Shown here: piece by piece, positions 7,499 through 38,483 of the stretch
Position numbering within the stretch: the stretch's first letter is position 1
Layout: every line of letters begins with the position of its first letter
NCBI GenBank assembly: GCA_031292695.1
Contig: JARLGS010000518.1
Coordinates: 1-39,008, forward strand
Reading direction: 5' to 3'
DNA from: Mycobacterium sp.
Lineage (GTDB): Bacteria > Actinomycetota > Actinomycetes > Mycobacteriales > Mycobacteriaceae
Length of the DNA: 39,008 nucleotides
Program-made: the position numbers and the translations under genes
The notes under the pieces: generated by a model
Databases searched by the model: none
Told to the model about the DNA's origin: nothing
Seen by the model: only the letters and a program-made list of their open reading frames with translations

Positions 7499-10117
7499 GT
7501 GAAAGCCCTCCGCCGGTTCACCGTCCGTGCCCACCTGCCCGAACGCCTGGTAGCCCTCGAGCGGCTGTCCATAAACCTGCGCTGGTCCTGGCACAAACCG
7601 ACCCAGGAGCTGTTCGCGGCCATTGATCCGGTGCTGTGGGAGCAGGTCCGCGCCGACCCGGTCGCCTTACTCGGTGCGGTCAGCCCGGGACGGCTCGACG
7701 AACTGGCGGCCGATGATGAGTTCGTCGGCCGGGTGAACCACCGGGCTGCCGATCTGGACACCTATCTGAGCCGGCCCATGTGGTACCAGGAGCAGGCCGG
7801 ACGCTCCGATGCCGGCGCACCGGCCATGCCCAGGGGCATCGCCTACTTCTCCATGGAGTTCGGTGTCGCCGAGGTGCTGCCGAACTATTCAGGCGGCCTG
7901 GGCATCCTCGCCGGTGACCACCTCAAGTCGGCGTCGGACCTCGGGCTGCCGCTGATCGCGGTGGGGCTGTACTACCGGTCCGGCTATTTCAGGCAGTCGC
8001 TGACCGCTGACGGCTGGCAGCACGAGGACTATCCGTTATTCGACCCGCAGGGCCTGCCCCTGCGGCTGCTGACCGGGGTCGACGGCGAGCCGGTCCTGGT
8101 GTCGCTCAACCTGCCCGAAGCGCAGGTGCTGCGGGCCCGGGTGTGGGTCGCCCAGGTCGGCCGAATCCCGTTGCTGATGCTCGATTCCGACGTCCCCGAG
8201 AATGATCACGAGTTGCGATCGGTGACCGACCGGCTGTACGGCGGCGACCAGGAACACCGGATCAAGCAGGAGTTGCTCGCCGGCATCGGCGGTATCCGCG
8301 CGATCCGGGCGTTCACCGAGATCGAGGGCATCGAGGCGCCCGAGGTCTATCACATGAACGAAGGCCACGCGGGTTTCCTTGGTGTGGAACGTATTCGGGA
8401 GTACATCAGCGGCTCGGCACTCGACTTCGAGACCGCACTGACCGTGGTCCGGGCGTCGACGGTCTTCACCACGCACACCCCGGTGCCGGCCGGTATCGAT
8501 CGGTTCCCGGTGGAGATGGTCCGGCGCTACTTCGACGACACCGTCGCCGCGCCCCTGCTGCCCGAAGTGCCGCTGTACCGGGTGGTGGCGTTCGGCGCCG
8601 AGGACGACCCGGACAAATTCAACATGGCGCACATGGGTTTACGGCTCGCGCAGCGGGCCAACGGGGTGTCGCTGCTGCACGGCCAGGTCAGCCGCGGCAT
8701 GTTCAATGAGTTGTGGCCGGGGTTCGACCAGGCCGAGGTGCCGATCGGGTCGATCACCAACGGCGTGCATGCGCCGACCTGGGCGGCGCCGCACTGGCTG
8801 GAGTTGGGCCGGGAGCTGGTCGGCGTCGAAGGGCTGGCAGCCGTCGATCAGGCAGCGGGTGAGCCCGAGTTGTGGCACCGGCTGCACGACGTCGATTCGG
8901 GTCATCTGTGGTGGATCCGGTCCCAGCTGCGCGAGACGCTGGTCGCCGACGTGCGGGCCCGCCTTCGCCGGTCGTGGCTGGAACGCGGCGCCACGGAGGC
9001 CGAACTGGGCTGGATTGCAAAGGCTTTTGATCCGGGTGTGCTGACCATCGGGTTCGCCCGCCGGGTGCCCACCTACAAGCGCCTGACGTTGATGCTGCGC
9101 GACCCGGAGCGGTTGGAGCAACTGCTGCTCGACGAGGACCGGCCGGTGCAGCTGATCGTCGCCGGCAAGTCGCATCCGGCCGACGAGGGCGGCAAGGCGC
9201 TGATTCAGCAGGTGGTGAAGTTCGCCGACCGGCCCGAGGTGCGGCACCGCATCGCGTTTCTGCCGGACTACGACATGTCGATGGCGCGGCTGCTGTACTG
9301 GGGTTGCGATGTGTGGCTGAACAACCCGCTGCGTCCGCTGGAGGCGTGCGGCACGTCGGGCATGAAAAGCGCGCTCAACGGCGGGCTGAATCTGTCGATC
9401 CGCGACGGCTGGTGGGACGAGTGGTACGACGGCGAGAACGGTTGGGAAATCCCAACTGCCGACGGAGTCACTGACGAGGCGCGCCGTGACGACCTGGAAG
9501 CGGCCGCGCTGTACGACCTGATGCAGCACGCGGTGGCGCCAAAGTTCTACGAGCGCAACGAACACGGAGTGCCGATGCGTTGGGTGGAGATGGTCCGGCA
9601 CACCCTGCAGTCGCTCGGCCCGAAGGTGCTGGCCTCGCGGATGGTGCGCGACTACACCGAGAAGTATTACGCCCCTGCGGCACAGTCGTTCCGGCGCACG
9701 GTGGCGCCGATCGACGGCGTGCCGTTCGGTGCCGCGCGATCGCTGGCCGCCTACCGGCAGCGGGTTGGGGAGACGTGGCCGAAGATCCAGATCACCGATG
9801 TGGACAGCTACGGGCTGCCGGACACGCCGCTGCTGGGCTCGGAGCTATCGCTGACCGCGACCGTAGATTTGGCCGGCCTGCACACGGACGAGGTTGCAGT
9901 GCAAGCGGTTCTGGGCCGCGTCGACGCCAGCAACCAGTTGGTGGATCCGGTGATGGTGCCCATGGCGCACACCGGTTCCGGCGACCACGGCGTCGAGGTG
10001 TTCTCGGCCACCACGCCGCTGCCGGTCGCCGGTCCGGTCGGATACACGGTACGGGTGTTGCCGCACAACGCATTACTGGCCGCCGACAACGAGCTTGGCC
10101 TGGTCACCTTGGCATGA
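7499..10117 (+). CDS. glgP: Alpha-glucan (glycogen) phosphorylase, long DUF3417 form
   Basis: VKALRRFTVRAHLPERLVALERLSINLRWSWHKPTQ N-terminus; YFSMEFGVAEVLPNYSGGLGILAGDHLKSASDLGLPL; EACGTSGMKSALNGGLNLSIRDGWWDE; divergent from glgE. Confidence 0.95.
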   Translation: MKALRRFTVRAHLPERLVALERLSINLRWSWHKPTQELFAAIDPVLWEQVRADPVALLGAVSPGRLDELAADDEFVGRVNHRAADLDTYLSRPMWYQEQAGRSDAGAPAMPRGIAYFSMEFGVAEVLPNYSGGLGILAGDHLKSASDLGLPLIAVGLYYRSGYFRQSLTADGWQHEDYPLFDPQGLPLRLLTGVDGEPVLVSLNLPEAQVLRARVWVAQVGRIPLLMLDSDVPENDHELRSVTDRLYGGDQEHRIKQELLAGIGGIRAIRAFTEIEGIEAPEVYHMNEGHAGFLGVERIREYISGSALDFETALTVVRASTVFTTHTPVPAGIDRFPVEMVRRYFDDTVAAPLLPEVPLYRVVAFGAEDDPDKFNMAHMGLRLAQRANGVSLLHGQVSRGMFNELWPGFDQAEVPIGSITNGVHAPTWAAPHWLELGRELVGVEGLAAVDQAAGEPELWHRLHDVDSGHLWWIRSQLRETLVADVRARLRRSWLERGATEAELGWIAKAFDPGVLTIGFARRVPTYKRLTLMLRDPERLEQLLLDEDRPVQLIVAGKSHPADEGGKALIQQVVKFADRPEVRHRIAFLPDYDMSMARLLYWGCDVWLNNPLRPLEACGTSGMKSALNGGLNLSIRDGWWDEWYDGENGWEIPTADGVTDEARRDDLEAAALYDLMQHAVAPKFYERNEHGVPMRWVEMVRHTLQSLGPKVLASRMVRDYTEKYYAPAAQSFRRTVAPIDGVPFGAARSLAAYRQRVGETWPKIQITDVDSYGLPDTPLLGSELSLTATVDLAGLHTDEVAVQAVLGRVDASNQLVDPVMVPMAHTGSGDHGVEVFSATTPLPVAGPVGYTVRVLPHNALLAADNELGLVTLA

Positions 10118-15158: not shown

Positions 15159-15458
15159 ATGGTTCTGGGAGTCCCGGTCGCGCGGACCAGCCCGGCGACC
15201 CACGAGGAAGAGGTGGTCGACCTCGACAGCCCGTGGGTGACCATCGTCTGGGATGACCCGGTGAACCTGATGACCTATGTCACCTACGTCTTCCAGAAGG
15301 TGTTCGGCTACAGCGAGACGCGAGCCACCGAGCTGATGATGCAGGTGCACACCGAAGGCAAGGCCGTGGTGTCGGCGGGCAGCCGCGAATCGATGGAGGT
15401 CGACGTCACCAAGCTGCACGCGGCCGGGCTGTGGGCGACCATGCAGCAGGACAGCTGA
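15159..15458 (+). CDS. clpS: ATP-dependent Clp protease adaptor ClpS
   Basis: [72 protein letters not shown]. Confidence 0.95.
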
Positions 15459-15462
15459 GAAA

Positions 15463-16044
15463 GTGCGCAAGTGGAAGCGGGTGGACACCGCGGCGGGCGT
15501 ACGGATCCGGTCCGGTCTGGAAGCGCATGAGGTGACGATGCTGCGCAACCTGGTCGGATCGTTGGTCGAGATGCTCGATGATCGCGAATCATCCTCGCCG
15601 CGTGACGAACTCGCCGAGCTGACCGGGATGAAGATGGGGCCCTCGACTGGGCCGGACGACGACACCATGCGTCGGCTGCTGCCCGACTTCTACCGCGACC
15701 CCGGCGAGCATCCGGACGGCCGAGCCGCCGGCGACAGTCTGAACGGCGCGTTGCGCAGCCTGCATGAGCCGACGATTCTCGACGCCAAACGCGATGCCGC
15801 CCAACTGCTTCTGGATACTCTGCCCAACCCGGCCGGCCGATTCGAGCTGACCGAGGAGCAAGCCCACGACTGGGCCTGCGCGGTCAACGACGTGCGTTTG
15901 GCACTCGGCACCATGCTCGATATCGGACCCGAAGGGCCGCAAAATCTTTCGCTGGACCATCCATTGGCCGGACATCTGGAGGTGTATCAGTGGCTGACCT
16001 ACCTGCAGGAGTATCTGGTGCTGAGCCTGCTGGACGAGCGGTGA
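15463..16044 (+). CDS. DUF2017 protein (Rv1332-like)
   Basis: MRKWKRVDTAAGVRIRSGLEAHEVTMLRNLVGSLVEML...; follows clpS as in M. tuberculosis. Confidence 0.85.
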   Translation: MRKWKRVDTAAGVRIRSGLEAHEVTMLRNLVGSLVEMLDDRESSSPRDELAELTGMKMGPSTGPDDDTMRRLLPDFYRDPGEHPDGRAAGDSLNGALRSLHEPTILDAKRDAAQLLLDTLPNPAGRFELTEEQAHDWACAVNDVRLALGTMLDIGPEGPQNLSLDHPLAGHLEVYQWLTYLQEYLVLSLLDER

Positions 16045-17069
16045 CCGGCTCCATCACGTTCGTCCCCGACATTCTGGTCGGCAATCACCACCACATCGAA
16101 GACGCGGCGCTGGGCAGCGGCTGGGCCACCGGCACGACCGTCGTGCTCGCGCCACCGGGCACCGTCGGCGCGGTCGACGTGCGCGGGGGAGCGCCCGGCA
16201 CTCGCGAGACCGATCTGCTCGATCCGGCCAACAGCGTGCGGCACGTCGACGCGATCGTGCTCACCGGCGGGAGTGCGTACGGGCTGGCTGCCGCCGACGG
16301 CGTCATGACCTGGCTGGAGGAACACGACCGCGGCGTGAAGATGCCCGGCGGCCGGGTGCCGATCGTGCCCGGCGCGGTGATCTTCGACCTGCCTGTCGGA
16401 GCGTGGGCCAATCGTCCGACGGCCGAGTACGGCTACCTGGCGGTCGACAGTGCGGGCACCGAGGTGCCTACCGGCAACCAGGGCGCCGGCGCCGGCGCGC
16501 GGGCCGGGGCGCTCAAGGGTGGGCTCGGCACCGCGTCGGTCACCCTCGACAACGGCGTGACGGTCGGCGCCCTGGTGATCGTGAACGCGGCCGGCAACGT
16601 CGCGGACCCGCAGACCGGACTGCCGTGGTCGGCCGATCAGATCGCCCGGTTCGGGCTGCAGCCCCCGCCCGCCGAACAGATTGAGGCATACCGGAACCGG
16701 CAGAAGGACCCCATGGCGCCGGAGCCGCTCAACACCACCATCGCCGTCGTCGCCACCGACGCGGCGCTGAGCCCGGGCGGCTGCCGGAAGGTGGCGATGG
16801 CCGCGCACAACGGTCTGGCGCACACCATCCGGCCGGCGCACACCGCGATCGACGGCGACACCGTCTTCGCGTTGGCGACCGGACGAATTCACGTCGACCC
16901 GGACCCTGCGACGCCCGAGCAGCTGAGTCCGGAGACCCGGCTGATCACCGAGATCGGCGCGGCCGCGGCCGACGCGCTGGCCACCGCGGTGATGGTCGGG
17001 GTGCTGGCCGCCGAGTCGATCGCCGGAATACCGACCTACCGCGAGCTGTTGCCGGGAGCATTCGGCTAG
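16041..17069 (+). CDS. P1/S58-family peptidase (DmpA-like; Rv1333 family)
   Basis: ILVGNHHHIEDAALGSGWATGTTVVLAP, VDAIVLTGGSAYGLAAADGVMTWLEE, GAGAGARAG, VGALVIVNAAGNV; GTGA overlap with DUF2017. Confidence 0.9.
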   Translation: MTGSITFVPDILVGNHHHIEDAALGSGWATGTTVVLAPPGTVGAVDVRGGAPGTRETDLLDPANSVRHVDAIVLTGGSAYGLAAADGVMTWLEEHDRGVKMPGGRVPIVPGAVIFDLPVGAWANRPTAEYGYLAVDSAGTEVPTGNQGAGAGARAGALKGGLGTASVTLDNGVTVGALVIVNAAGNVADPQTGLPWSADQIARFGLQPPPAEQIEAYRNRQKDPMAPEPLNTTIAVVATDAALSPGGCRKVAMAAHNGLAHTIRPAHTAIDGDTVFALATGRIHVDPDPATPEQLSPETRLITEIGAAAADALATAVMVGVLAAESIAGIPTYRELLPGAFG

Positions 17070-27730: not shown

Positions 27731-28819
27731 GTGGCCATCACTGATGTCGCCGCGTACGCGCGGTTGAGTTCGGCGGACGTCGAGGCGATCGGGGCCGAAC
27801 TCGACACCATTCGCGCTGACGTCGAGGACTCCCGCGGCGAGAAGGATGCGTCCTATATCCGCCGTGTCATCGCGTTCCAGCGGACCCTTGATGTCGTCGC
27901 TCGGCTGCAGATCGCCAGGAGTCGGTCCAGGGTCGGCTGGATGGTCGGCACGGCGGCGTTGGCATACGCGAAATCCGTTGAGAATATGGAGATTGGGCAC
28001 AACGTCTGCCACGGCCAATGGGACTGGATGAACGATCCGGAAATCCATTCGAACACCTGGGAATGGGACATGGTGGGGCCGTCGGTGCAGTGGCGCTACT
28101 CGCACAACTATCGCCACCATGTGTTCACCAACGTGGTCGGCGTGGATGACGACCTCGGGTTCGGGGTGCTGCGGGTGACCCGCGATCAGCCGTGGAAGCC
28201 GGAGTACCTGTGGCAGCCGCTGCGAAATCTGTTGTTGGCCTTGGTTTTCGAGTGGGGCATTGCCCGCCACGGATATCACTCCGAAACGGAACGAGCCGGT
28301 ACCGAGGACGGCAGGCAGGCTGCCATGAAGGCGATGCTGGCCAAGATCGCTCGGCAGACCGCCAAGGACTACCTCATCCTGCCCGCACTCAGCCTGCGCC
28401 GTTGGAGTCGGACGCTGACCGCCAACGCGACCGCCAACCTGCTGCGCAACCTCTGGTCCTACGTGGTGATCTTCTGCGGACATTTTCCCGACGGTGTGCA
28501 GACGTTCGCCCCGCAGGTGCTGCAGTCCGAGACCAGGGCGGAGTGGTATCTGCGCCAGATGCTGGGTGCGGCGAACTTCAAAGCCGGTCGGCTGCTGGCA
28601 TTTTCGAGTGGAAATCTCTGTTACCAGATCGAGCATCACCTGTTTCCGGATCTGCCGAGTAACCGGTACGCACAGATCAGTGTCCGGGTCCGCCAGTTGT
28701 GCGACAAGTACGACCTGCCTTATACCACCGGCTCGCTCACCCATCAGTACCTGCAGACTCTGCGGACCATTTTCCGGCTGGCATTGCCTGATGGCGGTTG
28801 GGCCGGCATTCGCCGATGA
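27731..28819 (+). CDS. Fatty acid desaturase (DesA3-like, membrane-bound)
   Basis: His boxes GHNVCHGQWDW, YSHNYRHHVFTN, QIEHHLFPDLPSNRY; GTG start. Confidence 0.9.
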   Translation: MAITDVAAYARLSSADVEAIGAELDTIRADVEDSRGEKDASYIRRVIAFQRTLDVVARLQIARSRSRVGWMVGTAALAYAKSVENMEIGHNVCHGQWDWMNDPEIHSNTWEWDMVGPSVQWRYSHNYRHHVFTNVVGVDDDLGFGVLRVTRDQPWKPEYLWQPLRNLLLALVFEWGIARHGYHSETERAGTEDGRQAAMKAMLAKIARQTAKDYLILPALSLRRWSRTLTANATANLLRNLWSYVVIFCGHFPDGVQTFAPQVLQSETRAEWYLRQMLGAANFKAGRLLAFSSGNLCYQIEHHLFPDLPSNRYAQISVRVRQLCDKYDLPYTTGSLTHQYLQTLRTIFRLALPDGGWAGIRR

Positions 28820-29532
28820 TGAGCGGCGCCCCGCCCGGGTCGAGCGGGGCGCGGATACGGTTCTTGGCGGCACTCGAGAGGGCAGCCGTCGACCGGCCGG
28901 CACAGTTGTGTGACGCGTGCGTGCAGGTTTTGCCGGTTCAGCGAGCGGCCATCGCCGTGCATGTCGACGGGGTGGGTCTGGAAATACTTTGTGCCAGTGA
29001 CGCTCTCGCGGAACGGGTGGAGTGGGACCAGATCACCCTGGGCGAGGGGCCAGGGTGGGATGCGGTCACCGGTTCCGGTCCGGTGGCCGCGGACCTGACT
29101 GTTGACAGCCGCCGCTGGCCGGTCTTCGCCGCGGCGGCAACGCGGGACGGCGTGGGCGCGATGTGTGCGCTGCCGCTGCAGGTCGGGGCGATTCGGGTGG
29201 GGGTGCTGGATCTTTACTGCGACGCCGCGGTGCCCCTGGTCGCAGGCGATTTCGCCGACGCGGTCGCCATCGCCGACCTGGTGAGTGCGATCCTGCTGAC
29301 CGTCGGACGCACCGGCCGGCTCGCCGAATCGCTGGGCCCGTGGTGGGATCAGCCGCTGAGCACCCGGGCCGTGCATCAGGCCACCGGGATGATCATGGTG
29401 CAGCTCGGTGCCGGCGCGCGCGATGCCTATGTACGCTTGCAGGCTTTCGCTTATGCGAATGACCGGCTGATCAATGAGGTTGCTGGTGATGTGGTCCGTC
29501 GCCGATTGCGGTTCGACCCGAATTGGGCGTGA
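28816..29532 (+). CDS. GAF domain protein with ANTAR-like C-terminus
   Basis: ATG overlaps desaturase stop; GAF-like LCDACVQVLPVQRAAIAVHVDGVGLEILCASD; C-terminal STRAVHQATGMIMVQLGAGARDAYVRLQAFAYANDRLINEVAGDVV. Confidence 0.82.
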   Translation: MMSGAPPGSSGARIRFLAALERAAVDRPAQLCDACVQVLPVQRAAIAVHVDGVGLEILCASDALAERVEWDQITLGEGPGWDAVTGSGPVAADLTVDSRRWPVFAAAATRDGVGAMCALPLQVGAIRVGVLDLYCDAAVPLVAGDFADAVAIADLVSAILLTVGRTGRLAESLGPWWDQPLSTRAVHQATGMIMVQLGAGARDAYVRLQAFAYANDRLINEVAGDVVRRRLRFDPNWA

Positions 29533-29567
29533 CATCCGTGGGAGGATTCAGATCTGGAGGGAGTGCG

Positions 29568-30296
29568 ATGGATCGTTATGAACGTCTCGCGAACGCATTC
29601 GTCGGCTTGGCAGACACCCTGGTCGCTGACTATGACGTGGTCGAACTCGCTCAGCAGCTGATCGACAGTTCGATGGCGTTGTTGCCGATAGTCGCCGCCG
29701 GGATCGTGCTCGGTGATGCGGATGGCGTATTGCACGTATTCGCGTCCAGCAGCGAGCAGACCTGGCTGCTCGAACTGCTTGAGGTGGAAAGCGGTGCAGG
29801 CCCTTGCCTGGAGGCGTACCGGACCGGGCAGCCGGGTTTCGTCGACGACCTTGCGGTGGATGTGCAGCGGTGGCCGGCGTTCGCCGGGCAAGCCGCCGAA
29901 TATGACTTCCGATCCATGTCGGCGCTGCCGATGCGGTTGCGCGAAGAGCGGATCGGCGCACTCAACCTGTTTCGTAGCGAGGTGGGTCGGTTACCGCGTG
30001 CCGATATCGCGGTTGGGCAGGCACTGGCCGATGTGGCGACGGTCGGGATTCTGCACCAACGGATCATGAACCGCTCGGAGATCGTCAACCAGCAGCTGCA
30101 GACCGCGTTGAACACCCGGGTCATCATCGAGCAAGCCAAGGGCGTACTGGCCGAGCGCGGCACGCTCGACATGGACGAGGCGTTCGCCGTCTTGCGCAGC
30201 TACGCCCGCCAGACGCATCAGCGGCTGGCCGACCTCGCCCGCGCTGTGGTGGGCGGGGTGGATACCACTGCGATCCTCAACGTGCACTCCGGGTAG
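29568..30296 (+). CDS. GAF-ANTAR regulator
   Basis: GAF region LIDSSMALLPIVAAGIVLGDADGVLHVFASS; ANTAR NTRVIIEQAKGVLAERGTLDMDEAFAVLRSYARQTHQRLADLARAVV. Confidence 0.9.
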   Translation: MDRYERLANAFVGLADTLVADYDVVELAQQLIDSSMALLPIVAAGIVLGDADGVLHVFASSSEQTWLLELLEVESGAGPCLEAYRTGQPGFVDDLAVDVQRWPAFAGQAAEYDFRSMSALPMRLREERIGALNLFRSEVGRLPRADIAVGQALADVATVGILHQRIMNRSEIVNQQLQTALNTRVIIEQAKGVLAERGTLDMDEAFAVLRSYARQTHQRLADLARAVVGGVDTTAILNVHSG

Positions 30297-30462: not shown

Positions 30463-30605
30463 CCCGATCGGATGGGCCCGGAGGGTGTAGCGTGGAGGAG
30501 GTTGGGAACCCAGCCAGCCCGGGTGTAGGCAGCCTCTCGCCGTTGAATTCCCCGAGCAGCCGCTCGCGCCGGACACATCGGTGACAACCACGCGACGGGA
30601 TCACC

Positions 30606-31793
30606 TTGAAATCTCAACCCAGCCTTCAATTTTCAGATACCTCGGTGCTGAGTTCCAGGCGCGCCGGCGCACCGAGTTTCGGGATGCTGAGCACATATCC
30701 ACCGACGCGATGCGGGCTGGCGACGTTCAGCGCTGCCCTGAGCGACGGGTTGGCCGTCAACGGCGCCGACGTCAGTGTGGTGCGCGTCGCGGACGGGTCG
30801 TCCACCAGCGACAGTCGCGTCATCGGTGAATTGACCAACGGATCGGCGGCATCTGTGGCAGCCGCCGCAGACTTGCTCAACCAGAGCGATGTGGCGGTGA
30901 TCCAGCACGAGTACGGCATCTACGGCGGAGCCGACGGCGATGAGGTCGTAGACATCATCGGTGGTCTGCGGGTCCCGTCGATCGTGGTGGCGCACACCGT
31001 CCTCAAAGATCCGACCAGGCACCAGCGCAGCGTGCTCGAGGCCGTGATGGCGCTCGCCGACCAGGTGGTGGTGATGTCCGACGCCGCCAGAATGCAACTG
31101 CGTTCCGGGTTTGACGTGGACCGCCAGAAGGTCACCACGATCCCGCACGGCGCGACCGTTCCGACCGGTGGCTACACGAAACGGGGCGGCCGACCTACGT
31201 TATTGACCTGGGGCCTGGTGGGGCCAGGCAAAGGGGTCGAGCGAGTCATCGATGCGATGGGTGCACTGCACCGCATCAACAGCCGACCGCGGTATCTGAT
31301 CGCCGGCGAGACCCATCCTCGGGTGCTCGCCGCTGACGGCGAGGCCTACCGCGACGCCCGTATCGAGCAGGCGCAGCGCGCCGGGGTGGCGGACGCGGTG
31401 CACTTCGATGCCGGTTACCGTGACGTGCCGTCATTGATCGCGCTGATGCTGTCGGCAGCCGTGGTGGTGCTGCCTTACGACTCCACCGATCAGACCACCT
31501 CCGGCGTCCTGGTCGACACCATCGCCAGCGGTCGGCCGGTTGTCGCGACGGCCTTCCCACATGCGGTCGAGCTGCTGTCCACCGGGGCCGGCATCGTGGT
31601 GGGCCATGATGACCCGGACGCGCTGCACGCGGCGCTGCGCGCGGTACTGACCCAGCCCCGGTTGGCCGGTGCGATGGCCGCAGAGGCCAGGCGGCTGGCC
31701 CCGACGATGGCCTGGCCGATCATTGCCAGGTCTTATCAAGCTGTGGCACAACGAATTCTGAGTAAACAACCGGAGTGGACGTGGCTGCGCTGA
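30606..31793 (+). CDS. GT4-type glycosyltransferase
   Basis: STYPPTRCGLATFSAALSDGL; VTTIPHGATVP; LLTWGLVGPGKGVERVIDAMGAL; VLPYDSTDQTTSGVLVDTIASGRPVVATAFPHAVELLSTGAGIVV. Confidence 0.88.
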   Translation: MKSQPSLQFSDTSVLSSRRAGAPSFGMLSTYPPTRCGLATFSAALSDGLAVNGADVSVVRVADGSSTSDSRVIGELTNGSAASVAAAADLLNQSDVAVIQHEYGIYGGADGDEVVDIIGGLRVPSIVVAHTVLKDPTRHQRSVLEAVMALADQVVVMSDAARMQLRSGFDVDRQKVTTIPHGATVPTGGYTKRGGRPTLLTWGLVGPGKGVERVIDAMGALHRINSRPRYLIAGETHPRVLAADGEAYRDARIEQAQRAGVADAVHFDAGYRDVPSLIALMLSAAVVVLPYDSTDQTTSGVLVDTIASGRPVVATAFPHAVELLSTGAGIVVGHDDPDALHAALRAVLTQPRLAGAMAAEARRLAPTMAWPIIARSYQAVAQRILSKQPEWTWLR

Positions 31794-32803
31794 TGCCGGA
31801 TCCCAAGTTCGACCACCTGCTCGCGATGACAGACCGGCATGGCACCTTCGAGCACGCGTGTGGCGCCGAACCACGGCCCGAGAACGGCTACTGCACGGAC
31901 GATATGGCCAGGGTTCTGGTAGTAGCCAGTCGCGAGCCGGACGGCGGGGACGCCCTACACGCTCTGGCCAGGCTGGCGGTGCGGTTCCTGAACGAGGCCC
32001 AGTCCTTCGCCGGTGGTTGCCGCAACCGGATGGACCGCAATGGTCACTGGACCGACGACTTCGCCTTCCAGGACTGCTGGGGCAGATGCCTGTGGGGCTT
32101 GGGCACGGCCGCCGCGCACAGTGACATCGGTTTGGTCCGCAGCCTGTCGGTGGTGCAGTTCGAGCGTGCCGCACGTGGCAGGTCGGCCTGGCCGCGGGCC
32201 ATGGCCTTCGCGGCGCTGGGTGCTGCCGAGTTGCTCAGTGTTGAGCCCGGTCACGTTGCGGCGCGGAGACTCATCGCTGACTACGCCACGGGCGTTCCGG
32301 CGCGGAGTGCCGACCTCGATTGGCCGTGGCCCGAGGCACGCCTGACGTACGCCAATGCGTTGCTGCCCGAGGCGATGATCGCCGCCGGCGTTGCGCTCGA
32401 GGACTCGACGCTGTCCGAGCGCGGCTTGGACCTGCTGGAATGGCTGATCGATTGCGAGACCGTCGACGGCCAGTTGTCGGTGAGCCCAGCCGGGGGCTGG
32501 TCGGCTGGGGAACCCCGGCCCGGCTTCGACCAGCAGCCCATTGAGGTGGCCACATTGGCCGATGCGTGCGCCCGGGCCGCGGGCGTTGATGCCAGCGCCC
32601 TCTGGCCAAACACGTTGCGGATTGCTGCCGCCTGGTTCGAGGGCGCCAACGACGCCGCGGCGCCGATGTGGAATCCGGCCACCGGCGGCGGATTCGACGG
32701 GCTGCAGGCCGATGGAGTCAACGTCAACCAGGGCGCCGAGTCGACGCTCGCGGTGCTGTCCACTTTTCAGCAGGCTCGCCGCCTGGTAGCCGTGTCGCAA
32801 TGA
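31793..32803 (+). CDS. Glycosyltransferase-associated alpha/alpha-barrel-like protein
   Basis: MPDPKFDHLLAMTDRHGTFEHACGAEPRPENGYCTDDMARVLVVA; regular Trp-rich helical ORF; TGATG overlap with the GT gene. Confidence 0.7.
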   Translation: MPDPKFDHLLAMTDRHGTFEHACGAEPRPENGYCTDDMARVLVVASREPDGGDALHALARLAVRFLNEAQSFAGGCRNRMDRNGHWTDDFAFQDCWGRCLWGLGTAAAHSDIGLVRSLSVVQFERAARGRSAWPRAMAFAALGAAELLSVEPGHVAARRLIADYATGVPARSADLDWPWPEARLTYANALLPEAMIAAGVALEDSTLSERGLDLLEWLIDCETVDGQLSVSPAGGWSAGEPRPGFDQQPIEVATLADACARAAGVDASALWPNTLRIAAAWFEGANDAAAPMWNPATGGGFDGLQADGVNVNQGAESTLAVLSTFQQARRLVAVSQ

Positions 32804-34278
32804 CTTCCGTTCGGTCGGGGCTGGTCACGCGCAGCCCACAGCGGCTGAGCGCAGACCGGACACGGGTCATCACCCGGCTTTTCGTTCCCGGGCAGGAAGG
32901 CTTCGAGCACCAGGAGTCCCGCGCCGGCGCGGTGCTGGCGCGGATCCTGGCTCTGGACGAGGCCGACGTGCGGGTGGCGCTCGACAGCGTCGTCGTGCGA
33001 TTCGATCGGCGGCACCGTGACCTGGTCGGCACCTTTCGGCACCACGCTCGCGAGCTCGCCGATCGATTGGAGCCCGGCATCAAGATCTCCGAGACCCGAA
33101 TGTTGTTGTTGGGTGCGACATTCACCAACGAGTTCGCGATCGAGGGGGCGGCGCTGTGTAATCCGAGTATCGTCGCGCACCCTGATCAAACGGGCGTGGA
33201 CGCGGGCAGTCTGCGATTTGTGCTGAGCGTCAGGGGAATCGGGGAGGGGCATCGGTCCTCGATTGGCTTTCGCACCGGCACCGTGGACCATGCGGGCCGC
33301 GTCACGGTCGATGACCCGGCTCCGTTCGCCACTGCAGGGACGGTGGTGCCGACGCTGCTGGACGCCGCGGTGTTCCGCAGCGAGCTGGCGCGGCTGGACG
33401 ATGCTGGTGAGTCCTCCGATTACGTGCTTGACGCGCTCGGCGACCAGTTCACCCGCGCCGATCTCGACGAGCAGCTGGACAGGCTGCAAAGCCACCGCAG
33501 CACCCGTGTTCGTGCGGCGGAGACCATCACGCTGATCCGGGGTATCGCCGAGCGATCCTACGCAGTCGAATTCTCCTCTGAAACAACAATTTCCGAGCGA
33601 GTTCTGTGGCCGGCGATCGGTGCCGAGGCAGCCGGCATGGAGGACGCACGGTTCGTCCGCTTTGTCGACGACGACGGTGTCGCCACCTACTGCGCCACCT
33701 ACACGGCGTACAGCGGATCGCAGATCAGTCAGCAATTGTTGGCTACCAACGATTTCCGGTCGTTCACCTCGGTGCCGATGGTCGGCCCGGCGGCCGCGAA
33801 CAAGGGCCTGGCGCTGTTTCCCCGCCGGATACGCGGGCGGTTCGCGGCGATGTCACGCTCTGACCGGGAATCGAACATGGTGGCCTACTCCGATGAGCTG
33901 TCGGTGTGGTCCTCCGGCTCGGCATGTCAGTACCCAGTGGAGGCTTGGGAGACGCTGCAATTGGGCAACTGCGGGGCGCCGATCGAGACCGAGGCGGGCT
34001 GGTTGGTGCTGACCCATGGTGTCGGTCCGATGCGCACCTACTCGATCGGGGCGATCCTGCTCGACCTGGATGACCCGACCCGGATAATCGGCCGGCTACC
34101 GGAGCCGCTGCTGAGTCCCGCCGCCGACGAGCAGGATGGCTACGTGCCCAATGTGGTGTATTCGTGTGGGGCGCTGGTGCATGCCGACACCCTGGTGCTG
34201 CCGTACGGCATCGGCGATGCCGCGATCGGTTTCGCCACGGTGGCGCTACCCGAGCTGCTCGCGGTTCTGCGCCTGTAG
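32800..34278 (+). CDS. GH130-family glycoside phosphorylase/hydrolase-like protein
   Basis: ATGA overlap with the upstream gene; EDARFVRFVDDDGVATYCATYTAYSG; GNCGAPIETEAGWLVLTHGVGPMRTYSIGAILLDLDDPTRIIGRLPEPLLSP; GYVPNVVYSCGAL. Confidence 0.82.
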   Translation: MTSVRSGLVTRSPQRLSADRTRVITRLFVPGQEGFEHQESRAGAVLARILALDEADVRVALDSVVVRFDRRHRDLVGTFRHHARELADRLEPGIKISETRMLLLGATFTNEFAIEGAALCNPSIVAHPDQTGVDAGSLRFVLSVRGIGEGHRSSIGFRTGTVDHAGRVTVDDPAPFATAGTVVPTLLDAAVFRSELARLDDAGESSDYVLDALGDQFTRADLDEQLDRLQSHRSTRVRAAETITLIRGIAERSYAVEFSSETTISERVLWPAIGAEAAGMEDARFVRFVDDDGVATYCATYTAYSGSQISQQLLATNDFRSFTSVPMVGPAAANKGLALFPRRIRGRFAAMSRSDRESNMVAYSDELSVWSSGSACQYPVEAWETLQLGNCGAPIETEAGWLVLTHGVGPMRTYSIGAILLDLDDPTRIIGRLPEPLLSPAADEQDGYVPNVVYSCGALVHADTLVLPYGIGDAAIGFATVALPELLAVLRL

Positions 34279-34297: not shown

Positions 34298-35173
34298 CTA
34301 TTGCGCGCTGCGCAACCGCACCAACCGGGTCGTCGAACTCTCATCGAGTTCGACGACGTCAGCACGGGACCGCAGGAAATCGCTGAAAGACCGGAATCCC
34401 AGAGACTTTTCGCTGAAGGACGGGTCCATCCGCTTCATCTGCGCCTTCACCGCCGAGTTGTGCAGCCATTCGACGTCGTCCTTCTCCAGCCCGATCTGCA
34501 GGGCTCGGGTCAGCAGGGCAGTGGCGGTGAGCTGCGGGTCCGGGGACTCGGGTTCCTCGGGCTCGGCTTGCTTGGTCTGCCGGGCGCGCTTGGCCGGTGC
34601 CGGGTCCGTGGGGGTTTCCGGCTCGAATGCCGGGACGCCGGGCAGCGCGTCATAGCTGACGAAGTCGTCGCAGGCCGCGGCGAGCGCGCGGCTGGTGGAC
34701 CCGGCGACCCCGATACCCACGACGTAGCGGCCGAGGCGTTTGCAGCGTTGGGCCAGCGGAATGTAATCGGAATCCCCGGCGGCGATGACCACGTGCGTGA
34801 GATCGGGCAGCCGGAACATGTCTTCCACGGCGTCCACGGCGAGCCGGATGTCGGCGCCATTCTTGCCGTAGGCCGCGGCCGGGAAGAGCTGCACCAGGTC
34901 GACCGCGCGGCCAACCAGCTGCTGGCGGTAGCCGGCGTTGACGTCGGCGGACCAGTCGGCATAGGCCCGGGTGAGTACCAACGTGCCGAACGAGGAGGCG
35001 AAGTCCAGCACCGCGCCGACGTCGACGGTGGCCCGGGTCAACCGGTCGGCTTCGAGGCCCTTGGCTTTGTCCTTCTGAAACGAGTTGCGGCCGTTGAGCT
35101 GGTCGTACCGCGATATCACGATGTTGTCGAAGTCGAGGTAGACCGCCACGCGGCCGGCAGCGGTTTCAGTCAT
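34298..35173 (-). CDS. NYN-domain protein (LabA/DUF88-like) with C-terminal OST-HTH/LOTUS-like domain
   Basis: RVAVYLDFDNIVISRYDQ; THVVIAAGDSDYIPLAQRCKRLGRYVVGIG; C-terminal ALLTRALQIGLEKDDVEWLHNSAVKAQMKRMDPSFSEKSLGFRSFSDFLRSRADVVEL. Confidence 0.85.
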   Translation of the reverse strand: MTETAAGRVAVYLDFDNIVISRYDQLNGRNSFQKDKAKGLEADRLTRATVDVGAVLDFASSFGTLVLTRAYADWSADVNAGYRQQLVGRAVDLVQLFPAAAYGKNGADIRLAVDAVEDMFRLPDLTHVVIAAGDSDYIPLAQRCKRLGRYVVGIGVAGSTSRALAAACDDFVSYDALPGVPAFEPETPTDPAPAKRARQTKQAEPEEPESPDPQLTATALLTRALQIGLEKDDVEWLHNSAVKAQMKRMDPSFSEKSLGFRSFSDFLRSRADVVELDESSTTRLVRLRSAQ

Positions 35174-35216
35174 GGGTCCAGTGTGGTCCATCGGGGTAAG
35201 CCACGGTGTGGAACCC

Positions 35217-35245
35217 CACTCGGGCGCCCATCTTGGGCGCGAGTG
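35217..35245. promoter_or_regulatory. Strong inverted repeat overlapping the predicted -35 region of the FGE gene
   Basis: CACTC(gg)GCGCCCA-TCT-TGGGCGCGAGTG: 12 paired bp, 2-nt bulge, 3-nt centre. Confidence 0.7.
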
Positions 35246-35247
35246 CA

Positions 35248-35253
35248 TAGCCT
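35248..35253 (+). promoter_or_regulatory. Predicted -10 element (TAGCCT) giving a leaderless FGE transcript
   Basis: TAGCCT-GTCGAG-ATG. Confidence 0.45.
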
Positions 35254-35259
35254 GTCGAG

Positions 35260-36135
35260 ATGCTCACCGAACTGATCGCGCTTCCCGGCGGGTCCTATCG
35301 CATGGGATCGCAAGATTTCTATCCGGAGGAATCGCCCGTACACGAGGTGACCGTCGCGCCGTTCTCGATCGAACGCCATCCGGTCACCAACGGTCAGTTC
35401 GCCGAATTCGTAGCCGAGGCCGGATATGTCACGGTCGCTGAGCAGCAGCTGGACCCGGCCGCGTTTCCGGGCGTGCCCGCCGACGAACTGATCCCCGGGG
35501 CCCTGGTCTTCCGCCCCACTGAAGGGCCGGTGAACCTGCGCGACTGGCGGCAGTGGTGGACCTGGGTGCCTGGCGCCAGCTGGAAGCACCCGTTCGGCCC
35601 CGAGTCGTCGATCGCCGACCGGCTCGACCACCCGGTGGTCCAGGTTGCCTACCCCGACGCCGCGGCGTACGCGGCCTGGGCGGGTAGGCGGCTACCTTCC
35701 GAAGAGCAATGGGAGTATGCCGCTCGCGCGGGCGCGACCACGGTCTACGCCTGGGGCGACGACGTCCGGCCGAACGATCAATTGATGGCCAACACCTGGC
35801 AGGGCCGGTTCCCATACGACAATCACGGTGCGCTGGGCTGGATCGGGACGTCCCCGGTTGGCACGTTCTCGCCCAACGGTTTTGATCTGGTCGACATGAT
35901 CGGCAATGTGTGGGAATGGACCACCACCCGGTACACACCCCGGCATCAGCGCAACCCCGAGGTCTCCGGGTGCTGCCCGCCGCCGGCCGGCGACCCCTCG
36001 ATCATGCAGACCCTCAAAGGCGGCTCGCACCTGTGCGCGCCGGAGTACTGCCACCGGTACCGGCCCGCGGCGCGGTCCCCGCAGTCGCAGGACAGTGCAA
36101 CCTCGCACATCGGATTCCGTTGCATCGCAGACTGA
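35260..36135 (+). CDS. Formylglycine-generating enzyme (sulfatase-modifying factor)
   Basis: LIALPGGSYRMGSQDFYPEESPVHEVTVAPFSIERHPVTNGQFAEFV; RLPSEEQWEYAARAG; MIGNVWEWTT; GGSHLCAPEYCHRYRPAARSPQ with both active-site-type Cys. Confidence 0.95.
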   Translation: MLTELIALPGGSYRMGSQDFYPEESPVHEVTVAPFSIERHPVTNGQFAEFVAEAGYVTVAEQQLDPAAFPGVPADELIPGALVFRPTEGPVNLRDWRQWWTWVPGASWKHPFGPESSIADRLDHPVVQVAYPDAAAYAAWAGRRLPSEEQWEYAARAGATTVYAWGDDVRPNDQLMANTWQGRFPYDNHGALGWIGTSPVGTFSPNGFDLVDMIGNVWEWTTTRYTPRHQRNPEVSGCCPPPAGDPSIMQTLKGGSHLCAPEYCHRYRPAARSPQSQDSATSHIGFRCIAD

Positions 36136-37130: not shown

Positions 37131-38483
37131 ATGCCCGGACAACCCAACATCGTCTATTTTCACGTCGACAACCTAGGTATGGGCGAGCTCGGCTGCTACG
37201 GCGGTGGCATCCTGCGCGGGGCCGATACCGCCCGCATGGACGCCTTCGCGGCCGAGTCGCTGAAGTTGTCGCACTTCGTCGTCGAACCGCAGTGCACGCC
37301 AACACGTTCAGCGCTGATGACCGGGCGGTACCCGATCCGGTCGGGCAACCACACCATCGCCCTGGGTGGCAATGGTGGTGGCATCGTGGCCTGGGAGCGC
37401 ACCATGGGCGACATTCTGTCCGAGGCGGGTTACACCACAGCGTGTTTCGGGAAGTGGCACATCGGCGCCGAGGACGGCCGGTGGCCGACCGATCACGGAT
37501 TCGACGAGTGGTATGGCCCGGCGCGTACCTACGACGAGTGCCTGTGGCCCGACGATCCCTGGTACAAGGCCGAGCGCGACGGCTACTCGTACATGTACGA
37601 CGGCACCAAGGAAGACGGCGTCCGCACCACCGACCAGCAGCTGACGGTCAAGCTCAAGGGCGAGGTCGACGGCGAATACGACCGCCGGGCAAAGGCGTTC
37701 ATGAAGCGCAGCGTCGAAGAAGACAAGCCGTTCTACCTGTACCACAACCACTCGCTGATGCACTTCCCGATGGAGGTCCGTCCGGAATTCAAGGGTAAGA
37801 GCATCAATGGGGCGTGGGGTGATTCGCTGCTCATGCTCGATCACGACTTCGGCAGCATCCTGGATACGCTGACCGAACTCGGCATCGAGGACAACACCAT
37901 CGTCATCATGGCCGGGGACAACGGCGCCGAGGACCACCTGGCCGGACGCGGCACGGCGGGCTTCTTCGACGGGTCGTACTTCAGCTCCGCCGAGGGTGGT
38001 ATCCGGACCCCATGCCTGATTCGCTATCCCGGACACGTCCCGGTGCGCGAAAGCAACGAGATGGTGCACGTCACCGACATGTTCCCGACGCTGCTGCGCT
38101 GGGTCGGTTGCGATATCCCCGACGACCGGATCATCGACGGCATCGACCAGCGCGAATTCTTCGGTGGCGCAGAAGAATCCAACCGTGAGGGCTGCATGGT
38201 GTGGCTCAACGAGGAGTTACACGCGGTGAAATGGTCGCAGTTCAAGATCAACTTCAAGCGCCAGCAGCATTTCCACGACCCGGAGATCCCGTTGGGCTTC
38301 GCCCGCATCACCAACCTGTTGGAGGACCCGAAGGAACGTGAGGCGGTCAACCAGACCTGGGTGCGGTGGTGGGTGATGCAGCACGCGTACCGCTTCATCC
38401 AGGAGTTCGACGCCAGCGTCGAGACCGAACAGCTCATCCCGGCTGGGGCGCCCATCGATTTCGTTCCCGATCGAACCCAGTAG
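37131..38483 (+). CDS. Type I (formylglycine-dependent) sulfatase
   Basis: FGly signature CTPTRSALMTGRYPIRSG (CxPxR); TTACFGKWHIG; VIMAGDNGAEDH; EGGIRTPCLIRYPG. Confidence 0.95.
   Translation: MPGQPNIVYFHVDNLGMGELGCYGGGILRGADTARMDAFAAESLKLSHFVVEPQCTPTRSALMTGRYPIRSGNHTIALGGNGGGIVAWERTMGDILSEAGYTTACFGKWHIGAEDGRWPTDHGFDEWYGPARTYDECLWPDDPWYKAERDGYSYMYDGTKEDGVRTTDQQLTVKLKGEVDGEYDRRAKAFMKRSVEEDKPFYLYHNHSLMHFPMEVRPEFKGKSINGAWGDSLLMLDHDFGSILDTLTELGIEDNTIVIMAGDNGAEDHLAGRGTAGFFDGSYFSSAEGGIRTPCLIRYPGHVPVRESNEMVHVTDMFPTLLRWVGCDIPDDRIIDGIDQREFFGGAEESNREGCMVWLNEELHAVKWSQFKINFKRQQHFHDPEIPLGFARITNLLEDPKEREAVNQTWVRWWVMQHAYRFIQEFDASVETEQLIPAGAPIDFVPDRTQ

Follow-up and report, generated by a model that had tools for sequence, protein, structure and literature searches.

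A candidate structured RNA leader upstream of a conserved, probably mannose-linked three-gene operon in Mycobacterium

A stretch of 39,008 nucleotides from Mycobacterium sp. (contig JARLGS010000518.1 of assembly GCA_031292695.1; the whole stretch is called the window here) carries three overlapping genes on the plus strand, encoding a GT4 glycosyltransferase, a middle protein that we call MID, and a GH130 protein. Together, these genes probably constitute a conserved, mannose-linked pathway that includes an enzyme family without an assigned activity. Immediately upstream lies a structured RNA leader, which is a strong candidate for a new family of cis-regulatory RNA; it was absent from an earlier sequence-only reading of this DNA and is added here. 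We tentatively propose, at a little less than an even chance, that the genes form a translationally coupled operon for an intracellular mannose oligosaccharide, placed under the RNA leader and within a stress-like regulon.

The leader occupies positions 30498..30612 on the plus strand. When the upstream regions of related loci are aligned, about 110 conserved non-coding bases end at the start of the GT4 gene. Two covariance models were made from such copies, the first from 18 and the second (R2) from 60, and the copy in the window scores 108.6 bits with R2. The predicted structure has six helices: a helix 1 hairpin (GUUGG/CCAGC) is followed by a three-way junction of helices 2-4, and the last hairpin (GGUGA/UCACC with CC/GG) holds a Shine-Dalgarno (SD)-like GGGA directly ahead of the start codon. 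Across 90 distinct copies, in an alignment that was fitted to the structure and whose figures consequently lean towards it, 90.5% of cells are paired, 23 of 28 pairs have changes on both sides (13.5 after shuffling), there are 141 such cells against 45.6 in shuffles, and the covariation score is 0.272 compared with at most 0.070 for slid partners. Judging by the slid controls and by how many new pair types occur, chance is an unlikely source of this signal. In the initial alignment, made from 18 close copies, covariation hardly exceeded that of shuffles; it emerged with the wider sets alone.

The placement of the leader is also fixed. An ATG, GTG or TTG stands at one leader position in 86 of the 90 copies and an open reading frame (ORF) of at least 60 codons follows in 75 of 88, a result that is supportive rather than independent, since the seed alignment had in part included the start position. 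The promoter -10-like box lies outside the model: G.GTANNNT is found 11-14 nt upstream in 82 of the 90 copies, against a background of 0.3% per 25-nt window, and in the window it reads GTGTAGCGT (30485..30493, plus strand, with TANNNT at 30488-30493). It is this combination of covariation and fixed placement that makes the case for the leader. Other explanations of the conserved bases did not hold. The leader is not coding sequence, because its indels are not multiples of three. A SigF-type promoter (GGTT-N-GGGTA) upstream of GT4 matches in the window alone and is absent in 39 relatives, and the reading of GGGAAC-N-GTC as an extracytoplasmic function (ECF) sigma factor promoter was dropped because covariation puts these bases in RNA helices.

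Most mycobacterial loci carry the leader in front of the cassette (36 with the window counted), and further copies lie elsewhere. With the second model, it is present in 20 of 299 genomes of the order and 22 of 297 of the class; there are about 90 copies in all, and a comparison with Rfam 15 returned no family above the gathering cut-off. The host genome has six copies, namely that in the window and five on the 25.5-kb contig C927 (L143, G000:C927:1-19000, at 2515-2632, 7851-7970, 9414-9529, 15221-15341 and 16011-16128), where they precede STAS, SPFH, cation ATPase and unknown genes. Overall, the gene behind the leader is most often GT4; others encode STAS, SPFH, cation P-type ATPase, GGDEF-EAL, GAF-ANTAR, GAF-ANTAR-STAS and ANTAR proteins, a DUF6131 membrane protein, the C-terminal half of a phosphoketolase, and desaturases after short ORFs. 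Once, the leader precedes MID itself without GT4. This gene set looks like a stress or sensing regulon.

Some copies have other surroundings. In L138 and L134, a short proline-rich ORF (MTTPVTPKPAPAQ... and MTTAAKPQMPKPAPAQ...) begins at the start codon of the leader, ahead of a P-type ATPase; it is a possible leader peptide or upstream ORF. In another family (L180-L182, L184-L187 and L190-L192), leader copies precede a conserved protein of 75-90 aa (GSYYGTYRGKSAYARETSAGSWQVKVHDP...), one of which is given as 77 aa; its representative in L181 has no Pfam match. Finally, Acidimicrobiia-type cassettes (L050, L057, L068, L071 and L075) have a different conserved stretch upstream of GT4, GGGAGAGTCGCC..TTGGGCAGGACGGCC..GTGCAGGCTCGACGCC, which also folds and is possibly a second leader family.

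How such an RNA might act is suggested by its last hairpin. The SD and the start codon lie in or beside it, the downstream genes appear stress-like, and in other phyla the cassette has heat-shock genes as neighbours. Instead of a riboswitch with a ligand, the leader could therefore be an RNA thermometer or bind a protein, a real though somewhat doubtful possibility. Nonetheless, a thermometer would not need the separate three-way junction and the unpaired bases that are conserved here. Furthermore, the leader was rejected as an ANTAR-target RNA: the dual hexaloops of that class occur in 0 of 92 copies by a strict definition and in 14 of 92 by a relaxed one, which is not above chance (13.6 after shuffling).

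The leader runs into the first gene of the operon. GT4 (30606..31793; TTG 30606 to TGA 31793, 395 aa) starts at a TTG that lies within the leader and whose place is set by the leader position in relatives. MID (31793..32803; ATG 31793 to TGA 32803, 336 aa) overlaps it at TGATG (31791-31795) and in turn overlaps GH130 (32800..34278; ATG 32800 to TAG 34278, 492 aa, a long form) at ATGA (32800-32803); ATG 32800 corrects the GH130 start given in the ORF list. The three ORFs and both overlaps are thus exactly as the sequence-only reading had described them. Furthermore, the stop of GT4 and the start of MID are no more than 3 nt apart in 67 of 74 relative loci, as are the stop of MID and the start of GH130 in 73 of 75 (mostly ATGA or GTGA), conservation that argues that the overlaps are beyond chance; in L082, a single open frame spans MID and GH130. 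The "fixed stoichiometry" that had been read into these junctions goes further than they do, since the overlaps suggest coupled translation at most. An obvious signal peptide, which had been said to be lacking, was not seen in any of the three N-termini by a crude hydropathy scan.

The cassette is conserved across Actinobacteria. Relatives were collected by a MID search alone, which returned 80 loci, and the order GT4, MID, GH130 is kept in about 70 of them; the rest are mostly contig ends or the Nocardia loci L064, L084, L087 and L089. These four keep MID without GH130 and mostly without GT4, so that MID may function there by itself or with a different partner. Among 297 genomes of the phylum, 13 have a strong MID match (E below 1e-100), 14 have a full-length long GH130, 12 have both and 15 have either, while about 0.6 genomes with both would be expected by chance. 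The distribution within the genus is patchy, with long GH130 in 6 of 25 genomes, the host genome included.

Outside Actinobacteria, the association is closer still. In Alphaproteobacteria, in Deinococcus and on Ilyobacter plasmids, MID is fused to GT4 in one protein with an adjoining GH130; by profile search, GT4 spans roughly residues 1-390 and MID roughly 400-750. Plasmids of Sphingobium amiense and S. yanoikuyae carry groES, groEL, a guanylyltransferase, mannose-6-P isomerase, GT4::MID, GH130 and phosphomannomutase, the guanylyltransferase of these operons being a mannose-1-P guanylyltransferase. Sphingomonas sanxanigenens has a guanylyltransferase, GT4::MID and GH130 amid hsp20, grpE, dnaK and dnaJ, and Sinorhizobium and Devosia have mannose-6-P isomerase, GT4::MID and GH130; in Ilyobacter, a second GT4 and a short GH130 stand ahead of the cassette. 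Among actinobacterial loci, four have a mannose-6-P isomerase cupin (PF01050) downstream of GH130, 27 a fatty acid desaturase close to the cassette, and 17 a second, usually divergent GT4 there. The contexts with GDP-mannose genes are the best evidence that GDP-mannose is the donor, an assignment that for the window itself is carried over from them.

The same contexts bear on whether the glycan is based on mannose at all. GT4 and MID might make or edit another sugar, with GH130 acting on a mannose cap or having a new specificity; the long GH130 departs from characterised enzymes of the family in its N-terminal extension, its insert and the residue Q386 (below), and one rhizobial operon includes an AGE epimerase. 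We consider this quite improbable, as GDP-mannose synthesis genes recur in the same operon and GH130 has signature residues of beta-1,2-mannoside enzymes.

The GT4 protein, conserved in 74 loci, has a GT-B Glycos_transf_1 domain (Pfam, 3e-14), and the first Glu of its EX7E motif is replaced by Q296 in 83 of 83 sequences. From the operon contexts, it is probably GDP-mannose-dependent.

The GH130 protein matches Glyco_hydro_130 (PF04041) at 2e-29 over residues 262-490 only. Its model (pLDDT 93) is a five-bladed propeller with an N-terminal helical extension and a helical insert, the top 35 Foldseek matches are all GH130, and the catalytic Asp is D281 (residue numbers count from T2; 1 is added for Met1). 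The closest proteins in both fold and sequence are the beta-1,2-mannoside phosphorylases Teth514_1788/1789 (Foldseek 1e-22 to 1e-21). E280, D281, K334, R352 and H405 are invariant in 32 of 32 sequences. In BT3780, Lys199 is the determinant of the beta-1,2 linkage, and a Glu beside the catalytic Asp is a mark of GH130_NC [PMC4599007, PMC4264767]. By alignment to Teth514_1788, K334 corresponds to the former and E280 to the latter, as in enzymes of the beta-1,2-mannoside type. Judged by its residues, the protein looks catalytically equipped and of that type.

Phosphorolysis is the probable reaction. The pair of Glu residues (E227/E268) that replaces basic residues in GH130_NC hydrolases was not found: G388 stands at the place of the hydrolase base E268 of BT3780, R352 is retained, and the E227 position was placed by spacing only. 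A Glu at residue 395 was considered as a hydrolase mark and set aside, since Glu is found at the same place in TM1225, a phosphorylase. Among the basic residues of the phosphate site, R352 and H405 are kept and the third, assigned by its spacing to the His, is Q386. This position, 19 residues ahead of the active-site His, is Gln in 30 of 32 sequences and His in the other two; TM1225 and Teth514_1789 have Lys here, and Teth514_1788 and Uhgb_MS have Arg. The phosphate-site residues of UhgbMP are presumably R150, K212 and H231, and we take position 386 to be the equivalent of K212. Loss of the catalytic and phosphate-binding residues, which the sequence-only reading had said would overturn its proposal, is thus not observed, as the catalytic residues are intact and two of the three basic residues remain. 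Of its remark that GH130 enzymes act mainly on beta-mannosides, often as phosphorylases, the first part can probably be narrowed to beta-1,2-mannosides for this protein, while the second is less secure because of the Gln.

The altered phosphate site, together with the GDP-mannose operons and the fact that Foldseek picks up the GT108 enzyme MPT-2, also raises the possibility that this GH130 is GT108-like, building beta-1,2-mannan directly from GDP-mannose on a chain primed by GT4, as a bacterial mannogen system. The match to MPT-2 (6q4x/6q4z) is weak (E 6e-6, TM 0.43) compared with the beta-1,2 phosphorylases at 1e-22 to 1e-21, and we regard this as very doubtful. A different role for the phosphorylase would be salvage, in which GH130 converts imported beta-1,2-mannosides to mannose 1-phosphate, a source of GDP-mannose that GT4 spends on an envelope or lipid glycan. 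This has been proposed for Thermoanaerobacter, whose cluster pairs two GH130 proteins, a guanylyltransferase and a GT4 [PMC4264767]. However, that cluster includes an ABC importer and GH5, whereas the conserved cassette contains no importer gene set and, in the annotated plasmid loci, none adjoins it directly; the one ABC ATP-binding cluster is in 8 distant actinobacterial loci. Furthermore, neither the GT4-MID fusion nor the chaperone or stress neighbours point to uptake. We consider salvage unlikely.

MID matches no Pfam or NCBIfam family. Its model is an (alpha/alpha)6 barrel with a pLDDT of 95.4, a high-confidence structure that bears out the earlier description of an alpha-alpha-barrel-like protein. 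Foldseek finds YPO2471 (E 2e-13), then AGE-type/cellobiose 2-epimerase and GH9-like enzymes. YPO2471 (PDB 7tem) and the AGE/cellobiose 2-epimerase fold are (alpha/alpha)6 barrels as well, but 7tem is only about 18% identical to MID and is itself without an assigned function. E20-H21, D36-D37, N78-R79, D94, D246, E251, D287, D302 and E316 are invariant in MID and, by the secondary structure of the model, lie mostly in loops ahead of the barrel helices, forming an acidic pocket. MID thus has the fold of the AGE (N-acylglucosamine 2-epimerase) superfamily, but only one His (H21) is invariant among 51 sequences instead of the His pair, which may disfavour the usual epimerase chemistry. With low confidence, we take MID to be a glycosidase-like enzyme. 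In three loci, L108 (6090-9223), L109 (6730-9881) and L114 (6476-9589), the gene for a YPO2471-like protein of about 680 aa either overlaps a short GH130 gene or comes straight after it. These pairs are distant, uncharacterised counterparts of MID and GH130, and they suggest a general MID-GH130 partnership.

Taken together, these results lead to the following model. The three coupled genes would serve a soluble intracellular mannose oligosaccharide, a protectant or reserve under stress. GT4 would transfer mannose from GDP-mannose onto an acceptor. Since GT4 family enzymes retain configuration, the product should be an alpha-mannoside; GT4 consequently cannot form the bond that GH130 cleaves, and any beta-linkage must stem from GH130. 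GH130 inverts between a beta-mannoside and alpha-Man-1-P, and here, from its residues and fold, it would reversibly add or remove a beta-1,2-linked mannose, most likely with alpha-mannose 1-phosphate and phosphate. Because the two enzymes act on different bonds, the likely outcome is an alpha-primed, beta-1,2-extended oligosaccharide, or else separate steps. MID, as an (alpha/alpha)6 enzyme with an acidic pocket, might trim, remodel or release the same glycan, which is the weakest step of the model. In mycobacteria, transcription would run from the -10 box straight into the 115-nt RNA, which covariation shows to be structured and whose last hairpin holds the ribosome-binding site and the start codon. 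If so, the state of the RNA would set the translation of GT4 and, by coupling, that of the other genes. Finally, as copies of this RNA also stand before STAS, SPFH, cation ATPase, GAF-ANTAR and desaturase genes, mannoside synthesis would be one arm of a stress-like regulon. A bolder form of this model, which we consider rather unlikely, is that the leader is a new translational riboswitch-like RNA class across Actinomycetes that senses a stress signal or a sugar-related ligand and switches a regulon with a mannogen-like beta-1,2-mannoside reserve, made by GT4, MID as a new glycosidase family, and GH130 in the synthetic direction.

Thus, the idea of cytoplasmic mannoside metabolism in the sequence-only reading gains from the beta-1,2-type residues of GH130 and the GDP-mannose synthesis genes in related operons, whereas synthesis and turnover of a single beta-mannoside linkage does not fit a retaining GT4. 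A stress setting, which it offered alongside storage as a possibility, finds backing in the chaperone neighbours of other phyla and the gene set of the leader.

Several points weigh against the proposed model. Its substrate, product and expression are putative throughout. The EX7E motif of GT4 reads Q296 and Asp, its donor and activity being predictions; Q386 replaces a basic phosphate-site residue, and GH130 may accordingly not be a phosphorylase; and no characterised enzyme matches MID. Among mycobacterial loci, no GDP-mannose gene recurs beside the cassette. In addition, the folding energy of the leader is only slightly below that of shuffles (median z -0.65), and the leader is missing in seven mycobacterial-type cassette loci and in other actinobacterial classes, so that it is not intrinsic to the operon.

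The operon has further neighbours in the window. Upstream on the plus strand are a fatty acid desaturase gene (27731..28819; Pfam), which is a recurrent cassette neighbour and elsewhere stands behind a leader copy (L176, L034), and two overlapping ANTAR genes (28798..30296; Pfam) that are possible regulators; the first (28798-29532) scores just below the Pfam ANTAR cut-off and the second (29523-30296) has a GAF domain. Convergent with the operon, on the minus strand, is a gene for an NYN and OST-HTH (LOTUS) domain protein (34298-35248), and a protein cluster that includes it is found near the cassette in seven loci. Beyond it, going by the sequence alone, are likely a formylglycine-generating-enzyme-like gene and a sulfatase gene (35260-36135 and 37131-38483) with a GntR-type regulator between them.

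If the model is correct, there is an uncharacterised pathway of cytoplasmic mannoside metabolism in bacteria, environmental mycobacteria among them, and with it comes the unassigned enzyme family MID, in Actinobacteria, Alphaproteobacteria, Deinococcus and Fusobacteria. To our knowledge, few cis-regulatory RNAs are known in mycobacteria. The genes behind this one (STAS, SPFH, cation ATPase, GAF-ANTAR, desaturase, GT4) make up a candidate regulon, for which the leader offers a direct point of entry. Our literature searches found no published description of the GT4-MID-GH130 cassette.

Among known enzyme systems, the Thermoanaerobacter beta-1,2-mannoside phosphorylase cluster of Teth514_1788/1789 [PMC4264767] also combines GT4 and beta-1,2-type GH130 with GDP-mannose synthesis and offers the nearest solved structures, but its published gene list names no MID (there are two hypothetical proteins), its GH130s are short, it has an ABC importer, and no RNA leader is known for it. 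The GT108 enzymes of the Leishmania mannogen system [reviewed in PMC8950772] have in common with this operon a GH130-like propeller and the logic of a beta-1,2-mannan reserve; they are eukaryotic, and the fold match to this GH130 is weak. The GH130_NC beta-1,2-mannosidases, such as BT3780 [PMC4599007], share the Glu beside the catalytic Asp and the beta-1,2 Lys, whereas this GH130 has Gly at the position of the base E268, keeps Arg and His, and has no signal peptide. For the leader, the actinobacterial ANTAR-target RNAs, with dual A1/G4 hexaloop hairpins, are likewise leaders that overlap the ribosome-binding site or start codon [PMC8164766], and ANTAR genes adjoin the operon in the window. 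The nearest published idea is the dauA motif (SRC-36-1) of Streptomyces, a three-stem junction that includes the SD and stands immediately ahead of a STAS gene [PMC11109978]. It has been reported only in Streptomyces before STAS, and compared by description only, it resembles the present leader in its three-stem junction with the SD and in the STAS gene downstream.

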